Source: Thiomicrospira sp. WB1
Lineage (GTDB): Bacteria > Pseudomonadota > Gammaproteobacteria > Thiomicrospirales > Thiomicrospiraceae
Direction of reading: 5' to 3'
Length of the DNA: 64,000 nt
Assembly (NCBI RefSeq): GCF_001507535.1
Contig: NZ_LQBN01000001.1
Location: 620,001-684,000 of the forward strand
The notes under the pieces are model-generated. The model worked only from the letters and a program-made list of their open reading frames with translations. It made no database searches and was not told the DNA's origin. This document shows positions 5,028-20,248 of the stretch, piece by piece; positions within the stretch are counted from its first letter, which is position 1, and every line of letters starts with the position of its first letter. The position numbers and the translations under genes were made by a program.

Positions 5028-6713
5028 GTGGCACAACCGGTCCGATTGGGTGACAAGCTGGTCAATGAAGGCTATATCACATCCGATCAGCTTCGCATTG
5101 CACTGACGGAACAGAAACTGACCGGTAAAAAACTGGGTGAAGTGCTGGTGCGTCTGGACTTCCTGTCCGAAGAAGACTCTCGCGAAGTAGTCGGCGATGC
5201 GGTCGGCTACTCGTCGATGAGTCTTCAGGGTGTGGTGCCGGACTCCGAAGCCTTGAATCTGATTTCCGAGCCTTTTGCGCGTGCCAATATGGTCATGCCA
5301 GTCAGTCTTTCGGGTCAACGTCTTCAGGTCGCGATGTCTAACCCGGACGACATCCTTCTGTTGGATAAAATCAAGCGTCATATCCGGGGCGAACCGGTGC
5401 AGCTGGAACCGGTTCTGGTGGTGGAAAATGAAATCCAAAGCGCCATTGACCATTTTTACGGTTACGAGTTGTCGATTGACGGAATCATCCGTGAGCTGGA
5501 AACCGGGCAGGCGGATTTAAGCTCGCTGGCAGAGGACGATGAATATTCTCAGCCGATGGTGCGACTGATCGATAATATTCTCACCGATGCGGTCAAAAAG
5601 GAAGCCTCTGACATCCATTTTGAGCCGGAAGCGCATTTTATTCGCATTCGCTACCGATTGGATGGGGTTTTACACCAGGTTCGATTGTTGCATAAAAGTT
5701 TCTGGTCCGCGATGGTGGTGCGCCTGAAAGTCATGGCCGATCTGGATTTGACGGATCAGCGATTGCCGCAGGATGGGCATATGGATCTGGTGGTGCATGG
5801 TCGGCAAATCGATTTTCGTGTCTCCTCTTTGCCGGGCACCCACGGCGAAAACTTTGTGTTGCGAATACTGGACCGTCACCGGGGCATTATTCCATTGGAT
5901 GATCTGGGGCTTGATCCGGACAGTTACCAGGAACTCAAAATCATGATGTCGCGCCCGACTGGGATTTTGCTGGTTACAGGGCCGACCGGTTCCGGGAAAA
6001 CCACTACCTTGTATTCTGTTCTTCGTGAAAAAGACGAGGAAGGGGTCAACATCATGACGCTGGAAGACCCGGTGGAATACCCGATGCAGCGCATTCGTCA
6101 GACTCAGGTCAATGAAGACATCGGCATGACCTTTGCCGCAGGCATTCGTGCCCTGATGCGACAGGACCCCGACATCATTCTGGTCGGGGAAATTCGCGAT
6201 GGTGAAACGGCGGAAATGGCGCTGCGTGCGGCCATGACAGGGCATCAGGTGTATGCGACTTTGCACACAAACTCCGCCATTGGCGCGATTCCCCGTTTGC
6301 TTGACATCGGCATGTCCCGTTCCATTCTGTCAGGCAATCTGATCGGTGTGGTGGCACAACGACTGGCCCGGCGTCTGTGTGGTCAGTGCAAAGAGGCTTA
6401 TGAACCGGAGCCGTTTGAAAAAGAAGTATTGGGATTGAAGGCAGAAGACAGTGTGGCGCAATATCGCCCGGTTGGTTGCGAGGCTTGTAACCATACCGGG
6501 TATCGCGGGCGTTTGGCCATTTTGGAAACCTTGCGTTTTACGGATGAAATGGACGCCTTGTTGCTGGAAGGTGGCTCTCAGTATCAGATTCTGCAAAAAG
6601 CGGTTGATCAGGGATTTTCTCCGATGTTGCACAATGCCCTTAAATGGGTACGTCAGGGCGAAACCACGCTGGATGAAATCAGCCGAATTGTGGATCTGAC
6701 GGAGTTGGTGTAG
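5028..6713 (+). CDS. mshE: MshE pilus-extension ATPase with c-di-GMP-binding N-domain
   Basis: A GspE/PilB-family hexameric ATPase of 561 residues that powers pilus assembly at the cytoplasmic face. It starts at a GTG directly after the mshN stop. Residues 6-29 read RLG..LV..G.I....L..AL..Q, the MshEN motif known to bind cyclic di-GMP in Vibrio MshE; a second, weaker copy begins KLGEVLV at about residue 35. Walker A is GPTGSGKT at 318-325. The Asp box and Walker B (DPDIILVGEIRDGE) follow, and a tetracysteine zinc site (CGQC...CEAC) lies near the C-terminus. With two GGDEF-EAL proteins elsewhere in the window, c-di-GMP control of this motor is likely (inference from the motif). Confidence 0.93.
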   Translation: MAQPVRLGDKLVNEGYITSDQLRIALTEQKLTGKKLGEVLVRLDFLSEEDSREVVGDAVGYSSMSLQGVVPDSEALNLISEPFARANMVMPVSLSGQRLQVAMSNPDDILLLDKIKRHIRGEPVQLEPVLVVENEIQSAIDHFYGYELSIDGIIRELETGQADLSSLAEDDEYSQPMVRLIDNILTDAVKKEASDIHFEPEAHFIRIRYRLDGVLHQVRLLHKSFWSAMVVRLKVMADLDLTDQRLPQDGHMDLVVHGRQIDFRVSSLPGTHGENFVLRILDRHRGIIPLDDLGLDPDSYQELKIMMSRPTGILLVTGPTGSGKTTTLYSVLREKDEEGVNIMTLEDPVEYPMQRIRQTQVNEDIGMTFAAGIRALMRQDPDIILVGEIRDGETAEMALRAAMTGHQVYATLHTNSAIGAIPRLLDIGMSRSILSGNLIGVVAQRLARRLCGQCKEAYEPEPFEKEVLGLKAEDSVAQYRPVGCEACNHTGYRGRLAILETLRFTDEMDALLLEGGSQYQILQKAVDQGFSPMLHNALKWVRQGETTLDEISRIVDLTELV

Positions 6714-6719
6714 AGCTTT

Positions 6720-7928
6720 ATGCAAACCTATCGATTTCAAGGTATTAACCGTTTTGGCAAGCGGGTTCGCGGGGAGATGCTGGCGAGTAATGAGAAGGAC
6801 CTGGAACGGCGCTTGCGCTCGACTCAGACAGAGTTGCTGACAGCCAAAGTCAAACAGTCCAACAGGTGGTGGCAGTCGATTGGACGTAAAAAAATTGCCC
6901 GTCGGGACGTGATTGTAATGACCAACCAGTTTCGACAGCTTCTGAAAGCGGGGGTGTCACTGATGGAGATCATCGATGATTTGCGTCGCACCTATGAAAA
7001 TGACCAAGTGCGTGAAATGTTGACCGTGGTGTACGAAGCCATGGAGGGTGGGGAGACGTTCTCCAATGCGCTCAAGCCTTACGAAAGTGTTTTTGGGCGG
7101 GTGTATTTGAGTCTGGTGTCAGTGGGGGAACGAACGGGGCAGTTGGAGCGTGTCCTGGAAAAACTTGAATCGGCATTGCAATGGGAAGAGTCGCTGGCGT
7201 CCAAAGCCAAGAAAGTGATGATCTACCCCAGCATTGTTGGGGTGGTGGTGCTCTCCGTGGTCATGCTGATGATGTTGTTTGTGGTACCCGAGCTTTTGAC
7301 CTTTATTGAACAGATGGGGGGCGAGTTGGGCTTGGCGACGGCGTCGTTGATTGCGACCTCCGAGTTCATTCAAAACAATATTCTGATTTTGCTGGCCCTG
7401 CCGTTTGTGCTGACGGCCTTGATTCGGGCCTGGCTGAGGCGCTCGCAACAATTTCGGCTGTGGTTTGACCGGCATCTTTTTAAGTTGCCGCTGGCCGGCC
7501 CCGTTCTGTATCGGATTAAGCTCGCCCGTCTGGCCGGCACTCTGGCGGTGATGTATGCGTCAGGGGTTAATTTTCGTGACAGTCTGGCGCTGTCCGGTAG
7601 CGTGGCCAGCAATGCTTACATTGAAGAAGCGGTTCACAATGCCATACGCCTGATCGAAGAGGGGGAACAGATTTATCGGGCCTTTGAGGAGACCGCTCTT
7701 TTTCCTCCCATGGCCATTCGAATGGTGCGTATCGGTGAAGACAGTGGCAATATGGATGATGCGCTGCACCATGTCAGTGACTATTACGATACCCAGGCTC
7801 GGGAGATGATTGAGAAAATCGAGCCGGCAGTGGAGCCGATTTTGACGGTGGTGATGGCGGTGATCGTCGGTTGGGTCATGATGGCGGTGCTCGGTCCGGT
7901 GTACGACACCATTTCCCAGGTTCAGTAG
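6720..7928 (+). CDS. mshG: MshG inner-membrane platform protein (GspF family)
   Basis: A 402-residue GspF/PilC-type polytopic protein, the membrane platform on which the MshE ATPase acts. Two homologous T2SSF domains are visible: about 60-185 (TNQFRQLLKAGVSL, then GERTGQLERVLEKL) and about 265-390 (LAGTLAVMYASGVNF, then GEDSGNMDDALHHVSDYY). The expected membrane segments are near 170-190, 220-240 and the C-terminus (VVMAVIVGWVMMAVLGPVYD). It starts 6 bp after mshE, so co-transcription is near certain. The family is shared by type II secretion and type IV pili; the operon context decides for MSHA. No truncation is apparent. Confidence 0.92.
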   Translation: MQTYRFQGINRFGKRVRGEMLASNEKDLERRLRSTQTELLTAKVKQSNRWWQSIGRKKIARRDVIVMTNQFRQLLKAGVSLMEIIDDLRRTYENDQVREMLTVVYEAMEGGETFSNALKPYESVFGRVYLSLVSVGERTGQLERVLEKLESALQWEESLASKAKKVMIYPSIVGVVVLSVVMLMMLFVVPELLTFIEQMGGELGLATASLIATSEFIQNNILILLALPFVLTALIRAWLRRSQQFRLWFDRHLFKLPLAGPVLYRIKLARLAGTLAVMYASGVNFRDSLALSGSVASNAYIEEAVHNAIRLIEEGEQIYRAFEETALFPPMAIRMVRIGEDSGNMDDALHHVSDYYDTQAREMIEKIEPAVEPILTVVMAVIVGWVMMAVLGPVYDTISQVQ

Positions 7929-7936
7929 GAGTTTGC

Positions 7937-9502
7937 ATGGACGCGGTTTTATACCTGAGAGACAACGCCATCTCGGTGATCGAAACGGATGACCGGGGTG
8001 CGTTTGTCGAACATGGCGTGGACTGGGATGAGACCGAGCGCCAGGAGCAGGTTTTTGCGCGCCTTGCTCGCGCCTCTCAGGTTTCCCTGGTTATTGATTT
8101 CATTGATGAAACACTGCATTTTGAGTGGGTGCCCAAACTGTTGCCCTGGGAAAAGCCGGGTCTGCAGAAACGTCTGACGGAAAAAGCCAGGCACGAGGGC
8201 GGGCTTTATGTGCATTTCACCTGGCTGCCCATAACACGCAAAACGCCGGAAGGACTGACGCAGCAACTGACCATGGTGGCCAGCATTCTGAAATCACCGG
8301 CTTTGGAAAACTTTTTCACTCGTCTGCATGAGGCAGCGGTGCCCTTAACACGGGTGTATTCGTTTGCGTTCCTGGTCGAAACCTTTTTCTTTCAGCGTCT
8401 GGCCAGACGCTTTCACCTTTCACGCAAACAATGCAAACAACCGTTTATGCTGGTGTTTCGTGAATGCGAACATCGGTTTCGCCAGATATTTTTTCAGGAT
8501 GGTCATTTGCGTATTGCCCGTCAGGTGGATTTGGACCCTGCTCTGGATGAGACGGCGATCAACCAGGCGCTGATGGATGAGACGCAGCGTGCGGTGAAAT
8601 ATGTTTATAACCAGAAGCTGATCCCACTCAACAGCGAAGTGGGATTTGTCTATGTGAACGCCGCACACCATGACGAAGCCGAAATCAGACAGCTTTATCA
8701 GGAACGCGTGGTGCAACGGAACTGGCAGACCGACAAGCTGTTCATCGTAGGAGGCGAACTGGGCGAGCTGACGAAAGGGCTGACCCGAACAAATACCCCC
8801 CACAGCGCAATGGAAACCCTGTCGCACTTTATTGATCAGGCGTCACCGCCTTCTTTTTATCAGAATCTTTATGTGCAAACGGTGCGAGGGTATTGGTGGG
8901 GTCGCAAAAGCGCCTGGGCTTTGGCGGGATTGCTGGCTACGGCTGCCCTGTTTCTGGGCGTGCAAGCGGCGATCGATGGCTGGCGACTGCAAACGCAATC
9001 GCAGGCCATGTCAGCGCAGCAGACGTTGTTGACCCAGCAGAAGCAGGCCTTGCAGTCCCAGTTGGCGCTTGAATACGACGCGCGTCATATTCAGACCACG
9101 GTCGAATTTGCTCAAGCCGTCATCGCTCAGCGTTCGGAGCGGGGGTTTTTCCGTATCTGGCAGGATGTGGGACAGGTACTTGAACGGCATCCGCACATTG
9201 CTCTCCAGCGCCTTAGCTGGGAGGATGCTTTACCGATTTCAGCACAACATTTTGAGCTAGCGCTAACGGGGTGGGTCTATCCGTTTAACCAGTCGTTTGA
9301 ACCGCCGACACAATGGGTGCAGGCCTTTGCACGTGATCTGGAAGCCTTGTCCGGGCTGCAGGCGGTGACCATTGATCGCCCGCCTTTGTCGGCGTCCCCG
9401 GAGGAGGCCTTGAATCTGAACCAGTCGGCGCTGCAAACCCAGTCCGCTTTGCCGTTTGAAATGACGCTGGTGTTTGCCATTCGGAATCAGGAGGCATCAT
9501 GA
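7937..9502 (+). CDS. mshI: MshI-like biogenesis protein, PilM-like domain plus PilN-like membrane region
   Basis: The start is ATG 7937 (MDAVLYLRDN), 8 bp after mshG; an open extension to 7871 runs inside mshG and is not credible. The product has 521 residues. The first roughly 300 look like an actin-fold PilM/MshI domain; the rest has one transmembrane helix (about 326-348), a Gln-rich coiled coil and a short PilN-like periplasmic domain (LSWEDALPISAQHFELALTGWVYPF). In type IV pili PilM and PilN are separate, so this protein would combine both jobs in the alignment subcomplex. Identification rests on architecture and operon position; sequence similarity to characterised MshI is only moderate by eye. 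Confidence 0.68.
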   Translation: MDAVLYLRDNAISVIETDDRGAFVEHGVDWDETERQEQVFARLARASQVSLVIDFIDETLHFEWVPKLLPWEKPGLQKRLTEKARHEGGLYVHFTWLPITRKTPEGLTQQLTMVASILKSPALENFFTRLHEAAVPLTRVYSFAFLVETFFFQRLARRFHLSRKQCKQPFMLVFRECEHRFRQIFFQDGHLRIARQVDLDPALDETAINQALMDETQRAVKYVYNQKLIPLNSEVGFVYVNAAHHDEAEIRQLYQERVVQRNWQTDKLFIVGGELGELTKGLTRTNTPHSAMETLSHFIDQASPPSFYQNLYVQTVRGYWWGRKSAWALAGLLATAALFLGVQAAIDGWRLQTQSQAMSAQQTLLTQQKQALQSQLALEYDARHIQTTVEFAQAVIAQRSERGFFRIWQDVGQVLERHPHIALQRLSWEDALPISAQHFELALTGWVYPFNQSFEPPTQWVQAFARDLEALSGLQAVTIDRPPLSASPEEALNLNQSALQTQSALPFEMTLVFAIRNQEAS

Positions 9503-16478: not shown

Positions 16479-16490
16479 ACCAGGCCTGGT
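16479..16490. repeat. 12-bp palindrome copy 2
   Basis: ACCAGGCCTGGT between the convergent dsbC and the membrane coiled-coil gene. Its last base is the first base of that gene's stop codon on the other strand. No stem-and-T-run terminator is seen in this junction. Confidence 0.9.
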
Positions 16491-17854
16491 TATTCTTGTG
16501 CTTTATCCGGCGCCCGATAACGGTAGGGATCGGGTTTGGCCGCGAGCTTTTGGGTTAGTGCGTCCAGTTTTTCCACTTTTTGTTCAATCTGTGACTGCTG
16601 GGTTTTTAACGCCTTCACATTGCGATCGAGCACGTCAAGCTGCTGGGTGATTTTGTTCAGTGCTGGCCCTGTCTGGGTGTCCTGGCTGACGGTGGGTGCT
16701 TTGATTGAGCTTAGCGCCTGGCTTAGCTCCTTCAGGCTGGCTTCGATGCGTTTGAGCATCTTGCGTTCCTGAAACGCCGACCAGGCAATGGCTTTGAGGC
16801 GTTCAGCCTGTTCATCACTCAAACTGGAGGCCGTCGATGCCTCGGAAGAAGCGCCTTGCGCTTCAGTCGGAGTGGCGGGTTTTTGTTGATGACCCTGAGT
16901 TAATTCAGCCAATTCCGCCAGGGTTTTGGCTTCCAGCTGCGATTGCAGGGTCAGCAGGCGTTCCAGTTTTTCCTGAATTTGTGCCAACGCTTTTTGTTGC
17001 GCCTGGCTTTGATCGCTCAACGCCTGGACCTGAGTGGTCACAGGCGCCAGCGATTCGGCTGCATTGGCCTGTGGGTCGGGCGAGGTCTGTGACGACGATT
17101 CTTCTGGCAAGTCTGCTGCTGCGGTGCGGTCGGTCGCCGGGGTGTTTTCGTCAGAGTGGGGCGCGTTGGCGCTGTCTTTGCGCATGGTTTCAGCGGTTTC
17201 GGACTTGGCTTCCGGCTGGGAGGCCTCCGCCGTTTTAACGTCCGCCTGGTCTGTATTATTGTTGCCTTCAAGTACAGGCAATGCGCCCACCGATTCAGTT
17301 TGTGACAACCGGCGAATGTCCGCAACCAAGGATTCGATCAGGCTGGCTAATTGATCCACTTTGATGGTCATGTCTTTTTGAAAGAGTCGGGATTCGGTGG
17401 TCAGAATGTCGGCCACCTCGTTTTCAAACGCCTGCTGTTTTTCGGTGAGGTGATAAAGCATCCACCCCATGGCACCGGCGGCAGAGAGACTGACGGTCAC
17501 CGTCACGCCCATCATGATCGATACCGCATTTTTGGACGATTTCAGGTCACGAGATGCGGTGCGCAATGCCTGGCGCCAGGCGACGTTGGCGTCGCCCAGT
17601 TCCATCAACTGCGCCTTTTGCTCATGCGTCATCTTAACGGCCGCTTCCGCGGCTTTCTGGCTTTGTTCGGCTGCCAGTTGAGCGGTTTTGGACGATTCAA
17701 GTGACAAGGCCGCCGCATCCAACTCACTGGCTGCTTCAGCGGCACCCAGTTCGCTCTGTTTGTCCTTGGCCTGCTGCACGTCGTCAGCCATCTTTTCCGA
17801 AGCGTGTTCCAGCTGCTCCAGTTCGTCCAGTAGATCGTCTGCGTTATCGCTCAT
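16490..17854 (-). CDS. Unrecognised membrane protein with one helix and long coiled coils
   Basis: A 454-residue protein I do not recognise. The start is ATG 17854, with GAAGGG upstream; a TTG at 17875 would overlap the previous gene. It opens with the acidic motif ADDLLDELEQLE (5-16), then an Ala/Glu/Gln coiled coil (about 17-105), one predicted transmembrane helix (about 111-135), a coiled coil, a Thr/Ser/Glu-rich linker (about 195-265) and two more coiled coils to the end (ALNKITQQLDVLDRNVKALKTQ). The N-terminus has no signal sequence and is probably cytoplasmic, with the larger part periplasmic (inference). It lies 17 bp downstream of the acidic-protein gene, which carries a very similar short motif, so the two products may act together. 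Confidence 0.72.
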   Translation of the reverse strand: MSDNADDLLDELEQLEHASEKMADDVQQAKDKQSELGAAEAASELDAAALSLESSKTAQLAAEQSQKAAEAAVKMTHEQKAQLMELGDANVAWRQALRTASRDLKSSKNAVSIMMGVTVTVSLSAAGAMGWMLYHLTEKQQAFENEVADILTTESRLFQKDMTIKVDQLASLIESLVADIRRLSQTESVGALPVLEGNNNTDQADVKTAEASQPEAKSETAETMRKDSANAPHSDENTPATDRTAAADLPEESSSQTSPDPQANAAESLAPVTTQVQALSDQSQAQQKALAQIQEKLERLLTLQSQLEAKTLAELAELTQGHQQKPATPTEAQGASSEASTASSLSDEQAERLKAIAWSAFQERKMLKRIEASLKELSQALSSIKAPTVSQDTQTGPALNKITQQLDVLDRNVKALKTQQSQIEQKVEKLDALTQKLAAKPDPYRYRAPDKAQE

Positions 17855-17871
17855 AGCGGACCCTTCGTTTC

Positions 17872-18945
17872 TCAAGCTTCGTCGGTGGATTGGCTCATTT
17901 GAGCAATTTTTTCTTTCAAAGCGTCATTGGCCGCCTTGAGTTGCTGATTCTTTTCTCGAATACGTTTGAGCTCGTCGCGCATTTCACCCGGTTCGTGCGC
18001 GGCACTGAGTTCATGCGGTTCGATGTCGTATCCCGCTTCCTTGGCCGCGGCAAAGGCACGCTCTGTGGCCTCAAAGGTGGATTCGATCGCCTTTTGCGCG
18101 GCATCGGTGGCACTTTGGGCTTTTTGCGAAATGCTCAAGGCCAGACGGGTGGCTTCTCGAGCGGTGTCGCCAACCTGTGCATTCATGGCGTCGGTGTCCT
18201 GACTGGTTTGAATGGCGTTTTGCATTTCGTCAATCGCTTCGCCCGCCAGCGACACCACATCTGTGTCGTCGGTCTCGGCGGAGGTGTCACCGACGGAGGT
18301 CGCTTGCTCCGTGCCTGGTTCCGCGTCGTTGCTGTCCGCTGCATCAGTTTCTTCGCTGACGGCTTCGGTCGGCGCTTCATCGTCCGAGACCGGAGCGTCT
18401 GCTTCAGCGGCCGGATCTTCTTCCTCGGCGGCCTCAGTGTTGTCCTCGGGCATCTCTGACGGTTCCGAGGTGTCCTCAGCGGGCATTTCCTCTGCGGCCG
18501 TGTCGGCGTCTGATGTGTCGTCTTCCGTGTCAGAGTCGGTTGCCTCCGTATCCACGTCATTGGGTTCGCTCTCAGCGGCTTCCTCGGCGTCAGCGCTTTG
18601 CGCTGTCTCCGCTGCGTCTGTTTCGCTCATCTCAGAGTCCGACGCCTCGTCTTCAACCTCAATCTCGGTCGGCATCTCGGGTTCCTTGCCATCATCGGAT
18701 TCGCTGTCGTCAGCTGGGTTGGCTTGTTCGGTCTCGGTTTCTTCCGGCTCTGAGTTAGAGTCGGTTTCTGTCGAGGTTTCGTCCTCACCGTTTTCCAGTT
18801 CGTCCAAGGCGTCCAGCAGTTCATCGGCCTGGGTTGTTGAGTCGTCCGGTGTGGAGGCGTTTTGTTCCGCGTTTTCGCCTTCCTCTCCCAGCATCTTCAT
18901 CATTTCCTGAGTGGCCTGATCGTCTTTTTCAGCATCAATGGTCAT
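17872..18945 (-). CDS. Unrecognised extremely acidic protein with C-terminal coiled coil
   Basis: A 357-residue protein of unknown function. The start is ATG 18945, with AGGGG upstream; its first codons overlap the end of the RluA-like gene. Residues about 20-240 are dominated by Asp, Glu, Ser, Thr and Ala with almost no basic residues; a shared motif ADELLDALDELE lies at 40-51. The final third (about 245-357) becomes helical and mixed-charge (AATRLALSISQKAQ-like, then KRIREKNQQLKAANDALKEKIAQ), probably a coiled coil. It has no signal peptide or membrane helix. Possibilities include a polar or scaffold protein that binds a basic partner, or an adaptor for the membrane protein encoded next to it; none can be chosen from sequence. 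Confidence 0.72.
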   Translation of the reverse strand: MTIDAEKDDQATQEMMKMLGEEGENAEQNASTPDDSTTQADELLDALDELENGEDETSTETDSNSEPEETETEQANPADDSESDDGKEPEMPTEIEVEDEASDSEMSETDAAETAQSADAEEAAESEPNDVDTEATDSDTEDDTSDADTAAEEMPAEDTSEPSEMPEDNTEAAEEEDPAAEADAPVSDDEAPTEAVSEETDAADSNDAEPGTEQATSVGDTSAETDDTDVVSLAGEAIDEMQNAIQTSQDTDAMNAQVGDTAREATRLALSISQKAQSATDAAQKAIESTFEATERAFAAAKEAGYDIEPHELSAAHEPGEMRDELKRIREKNQQLKAANDALKEKIAQMSQSTDEA

Positions 18946-19684
18946 AACTGAATCCCCTGTCGGTTTCCTGTTCGGTCGGTTGATTGTCGGTAACAAAGCA
19001 TTTTTTGTGCCAGTCTGATAGGGGATAATCGAAGCACAAGGGTTGCTGAGTCAACGGGTGCATGAAGCTCAGATGGCAGGCATGCAGCATCAATCGTGAA
19101 CTGAGGCGCTGTATGCGTTCCGGAGCATAGAGGTTGTCACCAAGGATCGGGTGCCCCAGTGACGCCATCTGCAGGCGCAGTTGATGCGAGCGGCCAGTGG
19201 TGGGGGAGAGCGTTACTTCAAATGCATGGTGATGCCCATCCAGGCAAAGCGTCTCTGTGCGCAATGCCCAGTCGGTATGGGTGGCTTTGCCTTGTCGCAT
19301 GTCAATTTTCTGGCGCGGTCGATTGGGCCAGTCACAAATCTGAGGCAGCTGCAAAGTACCCTGCTGCTGACTAGGCATTCCAAAGCACCAGGCCTGGTAA
19401 GTTTTGCTGATCTGGCGCCGCTCGAATGACCGGCTCAAAGCGCGATGCGTGTCGGCATCGCGGGCCAATACCATTAAGCCGGAGGTGTCCATGTCCAGCC
19501 GATGCACAATGCGGGCATCGGGCCAGGCAAGCTGGATCTGACCGATCAGGCTGTGCTCGGCAGGACGCGTCCGACCGGGCACCGACAGGAGGCCGCTGGG
19601 CTTGCTTACAACCAGAAGCCAGTCGTCTTCATAGCACACCCAGTCGGGCGCATAATGATGGTGTGGGGGCAGCGTCGAGGAAAT
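18935..19684 (-). CDS. RluA-family pseudouridine synthase (RluA-like), start codon unclear
   Basis: A pseudouridine synthase closest by eye to RluA, which modifies 23S rRNA U746 and tRNA U32. Conserved segments are SKPSGLLSVPGR, the catalytic motif HRLDMDTSGLMV with its Asp, QICDWPNRPRQKIDM, TGRSHQLRLQM and GHPILGDNLYAP. There is no S4 domain, as in RluA. The homologous region begins near HHHYAPDW, yet no ATG or GTG lies just upstream; the ATT at 19684 (AAGAGG six bases before it) is my choice. TTG 19753 is an alternative with a badly placed ribosome site. Its stop overlaps the start of the acidic-protein gene, so these genes are co-translated. A palindrome copy lies within the coding region. 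Confidence 0.82.
   Translation of the reverse strand: MSSTLPPHHHYAPDWVCYEDDWLLVVSKPSGLLSVPGRTRPAEHSLIGQIQLAWPDARIVHRLDMDTSGLMVLARDADTHRALSRSFERRQISKTYQAWCFGMPSQQQGTLQLPQICDWPNRPRQKIDMRQGKATHTDWALRTETLCLDGHHHAFEVTLSPTTGRSHQLRLQMASLGHPILGDNLYAPERIQRLSSRLMLHACHLSFMHPLTQQPLCFDYPLSDWHKKCFVTDNQPTEQETDRGFSYDH
19387..19398. repeat. 12-bp palindrome copy 3
   Basis: ACCAGGCCTGGT inside the RluA-like gene, where it falls in the frame giving Tyr-Gln-Ala-Trp-Cys (starting at a second codon position), different from the frames used in rmuC and tmk. Confidence 0.9.
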
Positions 19685-19768
19685 GGCGAGCCTCTTTCTT
19701 GTCCGAGTAAGGAATTTGTTAGAATCTGGTGTTCTTATTCTAATGCAAACCAACCTTGAGGAAAAAAG

Positions 19769-20248
19769 ATGTCGCACCAAGTTTCTGTTCTGTTTGTCTG
19801 TTTGGGCAATATTTGCCGATCGCCGACGGCACACGCCGTTTTTCGACAAAAAGTGGCTCAAAGAGGGCTTGAAGATCAGATTCGCATTGATTCAGCTGGC
19901 ACCGGTGGTTGGCACATTGGCAAACCGGCTGACCAGCGTGCCAGCGCGGTGGCGCATGAAAAAGGCATTCCGATGGCGGACCTGCGCGCCAGACAGGTGG
20001 ATCTGGGGGATTTGATTGAGTTTGATTATGTGCTGGCGATGGACGATGCCAATTACCATGATCTGCTTGAGATGGCGTTACCGGAGCACCGGGAAAAAAT
20101 TCATCGCTTTTTGGACTTTGCCCCGGAGTACGCTGAAACCGAAGTCCCCGATCCATATTATGGTGGCCCGGAAGGGTTTGATCATGTATTTGAGTTGGTG
20201 GACGCGGCGTCGGAAGGGTTGTTGAAGGAATTGGCGGCCAAGTTGTAA
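19769..20248 (+). CDS. Low-molecular-weight protein tyrosine phosphatase
   Basis: A 159-residue cytosolic phosphatase of the arsenate-reductase-like fold. The P-loop VCLGNICRSPT has the nucleophile C11 and R17 (CX5R), and the general-acid loop is VPDPYYGG. The length is normal. It could act on exopolysaccharide tyrosine kinases or small phosphoesters; no kinase is nearby, so the substrate is unknown. The ATG has GAGGAAAA upstream. It is divergent from the RluA-like gene, sharing a short upstream region with a possible -10 (TAGAAT, 19720-19725), and convergent with rne across a palindrome copy and a terminator. Confidence 0.92.
   Translation: MSHQVSVLFVCLGNICRSPTAHAVFRQKVAQRGLEDQIRIDSAGTGGWHIGKPADQRASAVAHEKGIPMADLRARQVDLGDLIEFDYVLAMDDANYHDLLEMALPEHREKIHRFLDFAPEYAETEVPDPYYGGPEGFDHVFELVDAASEGLLKELAAKL

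Follow-up and report, generated by a model that had tools for sequence, protein, structure and literature searches.

CC and ACID, a gene pair conserved across the Hydrogenovibrio family, share an acidic motif that resembles CheY-docking peptides

Introduction

Two adjacent genes in a 64,000-nucleotide (nt) stretch of the Thiomicrospira sp. WB1 genome (contig NZ_LQBN01000001.1, positions 620,001 to 684,000; this whole stretch is the window referred to below) encode proteins that we call CC and ACID. A short acidic motif occurs near the N-terminus of both, as ADDLLDELEQLE in CC and ADELLDALDELE in ACID, and the question raised by the locus is what two neighbouring proteins would bind with a common helix. 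A preliminary description of this DNA gave coordinates and motif residues for the two genes that are exact on re-check. It recognised neither family, and profile searches likewise place the proteins in none: no Pfam or NCBIfam family scores over the cut-off for either of them (the weak matches listed have E-values of 0.03 and above). No paper describing the pair is found among the matches listed, of which titles and abstract openings were covered; absence from print is not thereby established.

We propose that CC and ACID are a lineage-specific accessory pair that may dock a CheY-type response regulator, a reading that we hold at somewhat less than even confidence.

Results and Discussion

A motif common to CC and ACID

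A motif matrix was derived from 29 CC N-terminal 11-mers (20 of them distinct; the first copy was used for locus L072) and run over the 27 full-length ACIDs, the truncated ACIDs of L076 and L079 being excluded. The best site falls within ACID residues 20-75 in 19 of the 27, and the same number, 19 of 27, exceed composition-preserving shuffles at p<0.05 (p=0.001 for the window ACID). The summed ACID score lies 16 standard deviations over the shuffles, and the short acidic helix seen earlier in both proteins is thus common to them beyond chance.

The two motifs have the same conserved core, D.LL, amid otherwise diverging sequence. In CC the columns are D6 (30/30), L8 (28/30) and L9 (27/30), and in ACID D41 (22/24), L43 (23/24) and L44 (23/25); A, V or T mostly precedes the aspartate, and position 47 is mostly L or I. 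Extra copies of the motif are present in several ACIDs and in one CC, that of L072. The latter protein (6692-8155, minus strand) has an N-terminal insertion with the motif-like copies TDDLLSEL, ADHLLNAL and MDDLLEFM, and it looks like a CC that has taken up ACID-like sequence.

Likeness to CheY-docking peptides of CheZ and FliM

Short peptides with a similar core are found in two well-studied partners of CheY. The FliM motif LSQxEIDALL is described as binding phosphorylated CheY (CheY-P; PMC6700473; PMC9126983), and CheZ and FliM are described as using one common face of CheY (PMC3774744); the complexes are represented by the structures 1f4v, with a FliM peptide (PMC7355467), and 2fmf, with a CheZ peptide (PMC3084719). 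The genome that contains the window encodes CheY, CheZ and FliM according to Pfam, and its CheY matches chains of 1f4v and 2fmf with an E-value of 1.1e-46. Its CheZ ends GSQADVDAMLDDLGI and its FliM begins MDDILSQDEVDALLKGM; further CheZ proteins of the family end EADDLLAQLGL, EVDDLLDSLGI and DVDDLLGELGI. The FliM N-termini were located by pattern in 18 of 20 regions and read by eye in the other two, and the CheZ end was located in five of seven regions.

The core [VA]-D-x-L-L-x-x-L is common to CheZ and CC, as seen in VDDLLGEL (CheZ of G070) and ADDLLAQL (CheZ of G022) compared with ADDLLDEL (CC). Like FliM, the two proteins have the D-x-L-L core near the N-terminus, and the ACIDs of other species include EVDALLDAI, EVDDLLDAI and DVDALLNSI. 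The position in CC and ACID differs from that in CheZ, which carries its peptide at the C-terminus. Neither CC nor ACID has FliM domains. Membership of the CheZ family is excluded, since neither protein matches Pfam CheZ and the ACID helical domain gives an hhalign probability of 0.1% with CheZ and so shows no homology to it; the genome has a genuine CheZ gene at another place.

Docking matrices were made from four distinct FliM and four distinct CheZ nine-mers, including those of the genome itself. The CheZ-only and FliM-only matrices were scanned over 73,269 nine-mers in 226 open reading frames (ORFs) from 15 sources, CC and ACID making up at most 20 of these ORFs. With the CheZ-only matrix the first rank is taken by CheZ, which is in the training set, and ranks 2-9 are all CC or ACID sites; the window CC is second, the window ACID 13th and FliM 18th. 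With the FliM-only matrix the ACIDs of other species rank 2, 3, 5 and 6 and the CC of L072 ranks 7, the window sites lying far lower. The combined FliM and CheZ matrix places the window CC third, after the FliM and CheZ of the training set, and the window ACID ninth among 33,053 nine-mers in 97 ORFs. A simple pattern gives 16 hits in the 226 ORFs, namely 11 in CC or ACID, one in CheZ, one in FliM and three in others. To judge from eight or nine residues, CC appears CheZ-like and ACID appears to lie between CheZ and FliM, and it is plausible that the pair works like a CheY-docking protein.

The preliminary description had suggested that both proteins bind the same partner. The idea of a common partner gains strength from the conserved D.LL core of the two motifs and from its likeness to CheY-docking peptides found in these organisms, and CheY becomes the candidate. 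Neither of the outcomes that the description named as counting against it, unrelated well-known families for the two proteins or a pairing lost in relatives, is observed.

Distribution and gene order

The order-level sample comprises 62 genomes, all from one family (that of Hydrogenovibrio), of which 50 were counted as good. The CC profile matches 59 of the 62 and the ACID profile 56; in the good genomes they match 48 and 46, respectively. In a contig search the CC of Hydrogenovibrio halophilus DSM 15072 is 68% identical to the window CC. Every one of the 56 genomes with ACID also has CC, and the pairing is thus kept in relatives. Two of the three remaining CC-positive genomes, G022 and G082, have an eroded pair at the rluA place (L090 7326-8561, L091 7635-8878), an acidic ORF of 107-111 residues followed by a CC of 296-298 residues that has no N-terminal motif. 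The eroded acidic ORFs retain EDxLLDDINSIE, the motif of CC being lost.

These data bear on another explanation, in which the motif helices of CC and ACID pair mutually or with themselves as a short zipper joining ACID to CC. It would fit the occurrence of ACID only where CC is found, the amphipathic moments of the helices (0.45 and 0.44) and the heptad repeat into which the CC motif continues, as judged by eye. However, the helices of the two motifs each carry a net charge of -6 and would repel one another, and in G022 and G082 the motif-like stretch of the acidic ORF outlasts the CC copy. The charge makes mutual pairing unlikely, and we regard the zipper as having only a slender chance of being right; the earlier suggestion that one protein serves as a bait controlling the other is likewise unsupported.

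The positions of the genes and their parts are given in Table 1. On the minus strand of the window the gene order is rluA, ACID, CC, with a gap of 17 nt between ACID and CC, and a convergent dsbC adjoins CC on the side away from rluA. Gap statistics were taken from 26 loci in which both ORFs are complete, the start codons of relatives being picked by rule. The spacing between ACID and CC is 5-57 nt in 25 of these loci, and in one there is a 20-nt overlap when the earliest possible start is used. The preliminary description had tied the pair to the rluA transcript through the overlap of rluA with the start of ACID (18935-18945 in the window). The neighbourhood itself is conserved, 24 of the 26 loci having a co-directional rluA upstream of the pair (the other two, from genus g2, carry the pair elsewhere), but the overlap is not: 23 of the 24 loci have a gap of 20-303 nt and one has an overlap, so the overlap in the window is incidental. 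A weak promoter-like match (9 of 12) lies at 19054-19025 on the minus strand, within the end of rluA and upstream of ACID, and ACID and CC might have a promoter of their own there.

Table 1. Features of the CC and ACID locus (positions in the window)
Feature	Positions	Strand	Remarks
CC	16490..17854	-	ATG start, 454 amino acids; N-terminal motif, alanine-rich helical part, one predicted transmembrane helix, long helical/disordered part
ACID	17872..18945	-	357 amino acids; extremely acidic, isoelectric point 3.3
RluA-family pseudouridine synthase (rluA)	18935..19861	-	upstream neighbour of ACID
CC motif ADDLLDELEQLE	17807..17842	-	CC residues 5-16, CheZ-like
ACID motif ADELLDALDELE	18793..18828	-	ACID residues 40-51, CheZ/FliM-like; inside modelled helix 36-52
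ACID N-terminal conserved peptide	18883..18945	-	residues 1-21, consensus EKDDxATxEMLxMMxE
ACID variable acidic linker	18268..18789	-	residues 53-226, predicted local distance difference test (pLDDT) mostly below 50
ACID C-terminal helical domain	17875..18267	-	residues 227-357; modelled helices 227-247, 251-303, 319-356
CC N-terminal predicted cytoplasmic part	17528..17854	-	residues 1-109; W93 and R94 conserved
CC predicted transmembrane segment	17468..17527	-	residues 110-129; N-in by charge
CC predicted periplasmic part	16493..17467	-	residues 130-454
CC C-terminal PYRYRAP tail	16508..16528	-	residues 443-449; Y444 invariant in 29 rows

In a class-wide sample of 369 genomes, at least four of them from the family, the CC profile gives 14 matches: three family members, genome G118 and ten that lie wholly within positions 264-394 of the 403-position profile, in the C-terminal coiled coil, and are taken as chance. 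Four class-wide matches to the ACID domain outside the family, G118 not counted, are also taken as chance; two of them, in G416 and G361, by eye fall on a helical ORF that is unrelated and on a short ORF resembling a lipoprotein. G118 belongs to another order, has a small genome that is 84% complete and carries a distant CC-ACID pair at L121 2-1367. Its CC-like ORF begins MAEERDELLDEMAELDQ, is cut by the contig end, matches profile positions 1-134 with an E-value of 2.4e-5 and lies directly downstream of an acidic ORF of 287 amino acids. Identity to the window proteins is 22% in the ACID domain and 23% in the CC part; the assignment of the acidic ORF as an ACID rests on its position, acidity and alignment, and later profile matches of G118 are in-sample. 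A cca-like gene, recognised by eye, adjoins this pair.

Co-occurrence with chemotaxis and flagellar genes

FliM is found in 57 of the 62 family genomes, and G015, a single contig of 1,932,455 bp, is the only one of the 50 good genomes without it. No CC/ACID pair was found in G015, where rluA is directly followed by an fkpA-like gene (recognised by eye), and FlhA was not found there either. CheW is present in 10 of the 11 genomes tested and absent only from G015. The evidence is suggestive that this genome is that of Thioalkalimicrobium cyclicum (T. cyclica) ALM1, an assignment that we make tentatively. The description of strain ALM1 (PMC4891895) reports a non-motile organism whose cells are ring-shaped, occurring as irregular spheres or open rings. 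In one genome, then, the pair and the genes for chemotaxis and flagella are missing jointly.

A strict part of the flagellar motor is a weakened candidate role for the pair: in G065, G077 and G118 the pair is present and FlhA was not found, although at 84-88% completeness this is not firm. All three carry CheW matches, that of G118 being weak and interrupted. Positioning of carboxysomes was considered because members of the family are carbon-fixing sulfur oxidisers. It is rejected as a requirement, as carboxysome-like structures are described in ALM1 (PMC4891895) and G015 has no pair; no search for carboxysome genes was made.

Several findings weigh against the docking of CheY. At the level of genomes, the link to chemotaxis comes down to one loss event in a reduced genome, which is suggestive and not proof. 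G022 and G082 keep chemotaxis genes despite their eroded pair, G011 (97% complete) has CheW, FlhA and FliM and no CC/ACID pair was found in it, and in G118 the pair is accompanied by the weak, interrupted CheW match already mentioned and by no FlhA that could be found. The CC and ACID genes adjoin rluA and not a che cluster. At the level of sequence, the docking-like motif is only eight or nine residues long, and neither the SQ lead nor the LG[ILF] end of CheZ is conserved in the CC and ACID alignments. By eye, the CC motif would also fit the first turns of a coiled coil. With the FliM-only matrix the window CC ranks 713 and the window ACID 248 of 73,269, a further difference from FliM. With the combined matrix the window ACID fails against its own shuffles (p=0.07), and 14 of the 27 full-length ACIDs reach p<0.05, three of them at a site other than the N-terminal motif.

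These low ranks and the value of p=0.07 are also what would be expected if the likeness were compositional only, any acidic amphipathic helix rich in D, E and L looking similar; the ACID family consists of 18% E, 12% D and 9% L. Such an account is very improbable, given that D.LL is conserved position by position in both proteins and that with CheZ peptides the CC and ACID sites follow CheZ at the head of the ranking among 226 ORFs.

Architecture of ACID

ACID has a net charge of -97. AlphaFold2, with an alignment of two sequences, models helices at residues 5-29, 36-52, 227-247, 251-303 and 319-356, with a mean pLDDT of 58.0. At the N-terminus, M15 and M18 are present in 27 of the 27 rows that have a letter there, and the conserved peptide is perhaps a second docking site for another partner. 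The linker, of about 170 residues, contains one K or R and 69 D or E. The ACIDs at L086 8482-9417, L088 6998-7606 and L082 7015-7842 have linkers with short tandem repeats of the DEVAEL and SADIED types, and since some linkers are built of such repeats the length and charge of the linker may matter rather than its sequence.

In the C-terminal domain N333 and N340, seven residues apart in a leucine-zipper-like stretch, are at least 90% conserved. Asparagines are placed in this way in the leucine-zipper-like repeats of parallel dimers, and by this analogy ACID is probably dimeric through its C-terminal helices. Compared by fold with the PDB, the ACID model gives 281 matches, none with an E-value of 0.001 or below, and the ACID profile matches only coiled coils in the PDB, with E-values of 0.0013 and above.

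Architecture of CC

The alignments of CC (A1) and ACID (A2) exclude L083, in which CC is partial, and L084, which gives no blastp match. The CCs have a common layout: they open with the motif, and an alanine-rich helical stretch containing W93-R94, a transmembrane-like segment, a variable linker, further helices and a PYxYR tail follow in turn. The window CC has a single hydrophobic segment. In 28 of 29 rows the hydropathy maximum falls within residues 98-146, the exception being L072, with its maximum at 200-218; exactly one segment exceeds the threshold in 24 rows and two overlapping ones do so in four, while L077 is at the threshold. K and R are commoner on the N-terminal side of the segment in 21 of the 29 rows, and the parsimonious topology would be N-in and C-out, with about 325 residues outside by prediction. 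The PYxYR tail is conserved at the predicted periplasmic end, no known motif is recognised in it, and the eroded CC of G022 has DYFYRNP. The model of CC shows helices at low confidence (mean pLDDT 44.9) and was set aside for inference of function.

In the PDB the CC profile finds its best match in a methyl-accepting chemotaxis protein, to whose helical hairpin (2ch7, E-value 4.9e-6) profile positions 142-388 align, starting just past the transmembrane segment. Syntaxins (from 9.6e-6) and designed coiled coils rank nearby, and given these neighbours the match is read as a coiled-coil likeness and not as kinship. Columns 20-88 of the CC profile and 271-338 of the ACID profile are weakly similar (hhalign probability 34%). 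The earlier view that CC and ACID are otherwise unlike holds apart from this stretch, where the weak similarity of the CC cytoplasmic helix to the ACID C-terminal domain could reflect shared ancestry or coiled-coil bias.

The large predicted outer part and the conserved tail would suit an explanation in which the periplasmic coiled coil of CC acts in the envelope or in cell shape and ACID is its cytoplasmic regulator, T. cyclica having lost the pair with the rod or vibrio shape. The irregular spheres or open rings described for that species (PMC4891895) are in keeping with this, as is the pair of G118, where FlhA was not found. We consider it improbable; it leaves the shared cytoplasmic motif and the likeness to CheZ unexplained.

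Comparison with pole organisers

Pole organisers have a layout of a membrane-spanning coiled coil and an acidic hub, and this favours an explanation in which CC and ACID form a polar or envelope scaffold pair whose common partner is not CheY but might be FlhF/FlhG, ParA-type ATPases or some other landmark. Docking by the acidic helix would then be generic, and T. cyclica would have lost the pair along with its flagellated pole. G015 lacks FliM, FlhA and CheW as well as the pair, so flagella and chemotaxis are inseparable there. HubP/FimV is an acidic hub and in this resembles ACID, whereas CC and ACID are two separate proteins. No FimV/HubP-type domains (such as LysM) are over the Pfam or NCBIfam cut-off in CC or ACID, and the rest of the genome was not searched. 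PopZ has an N-terminal client helix, a long acidic disordered linker and a C-terminal helical oligomerisation domain, and ACID is alike by description only; PopZ is alphaproteobacterial and is not known to have a membrane partner gene. The partners of Vibrio cholerae HubP, MotV and MotW, are described as lineage-restricted membrane proteins that steer chemotactic motility and, like CC, have coiled coils (PMC8789113). Among the ORFs scanned, however, the motif resembles CheZ peptides specifically, and a scaffold with another partner is in our view rather unlikely, though it deserves more credit than a role in cell shape.

A putative role in CheY docking

If CheY is the partner, CC would be tethered to the inner membrane, its N-terminus facing the cytoplasm and presenting a CheZ-like docking helix right at the tip. 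ACID would be a soluble, probably dimeric hub in which the same helix, close to the N-terminus, precedes a long, flexible linker of negative charge, and in some species it would display further copies of the helix. Together they would capture phosphorylated CheY, or a CheY-like regulator, so that CheY-P is concentrated, buffered or positioned near the membrane, and they would compete for the face of CheY that FliM and CheZ both use. An effect on motor switching could follow. The suggestions of the preliminary description are in this sense partly supported.

The proteins that bind CheY-P by such a short helix are few and central, namely FliM/FliY and CheZ. That the pair is a two-protein CheY-docking device not known before, in which a membrane-anchored coiled coil and a multivalent acidic hub hold CheY-P at a defined site through a docking helix of the CheZ/FliM type and so tune motor switching or a twitching-type output throughout the family, is a bolder claim, and one that we regard as doubtful. 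The comparisons give two orphan genes that are conserved across the family a candidate partner, CheY. The pair may belong to the bacterial steering system as a component not described so far and, if the proposal is true, a family of sulfur-oxidising autotrophs would have an extra layer of chemotaxis that works by buffering, positioning or competition.

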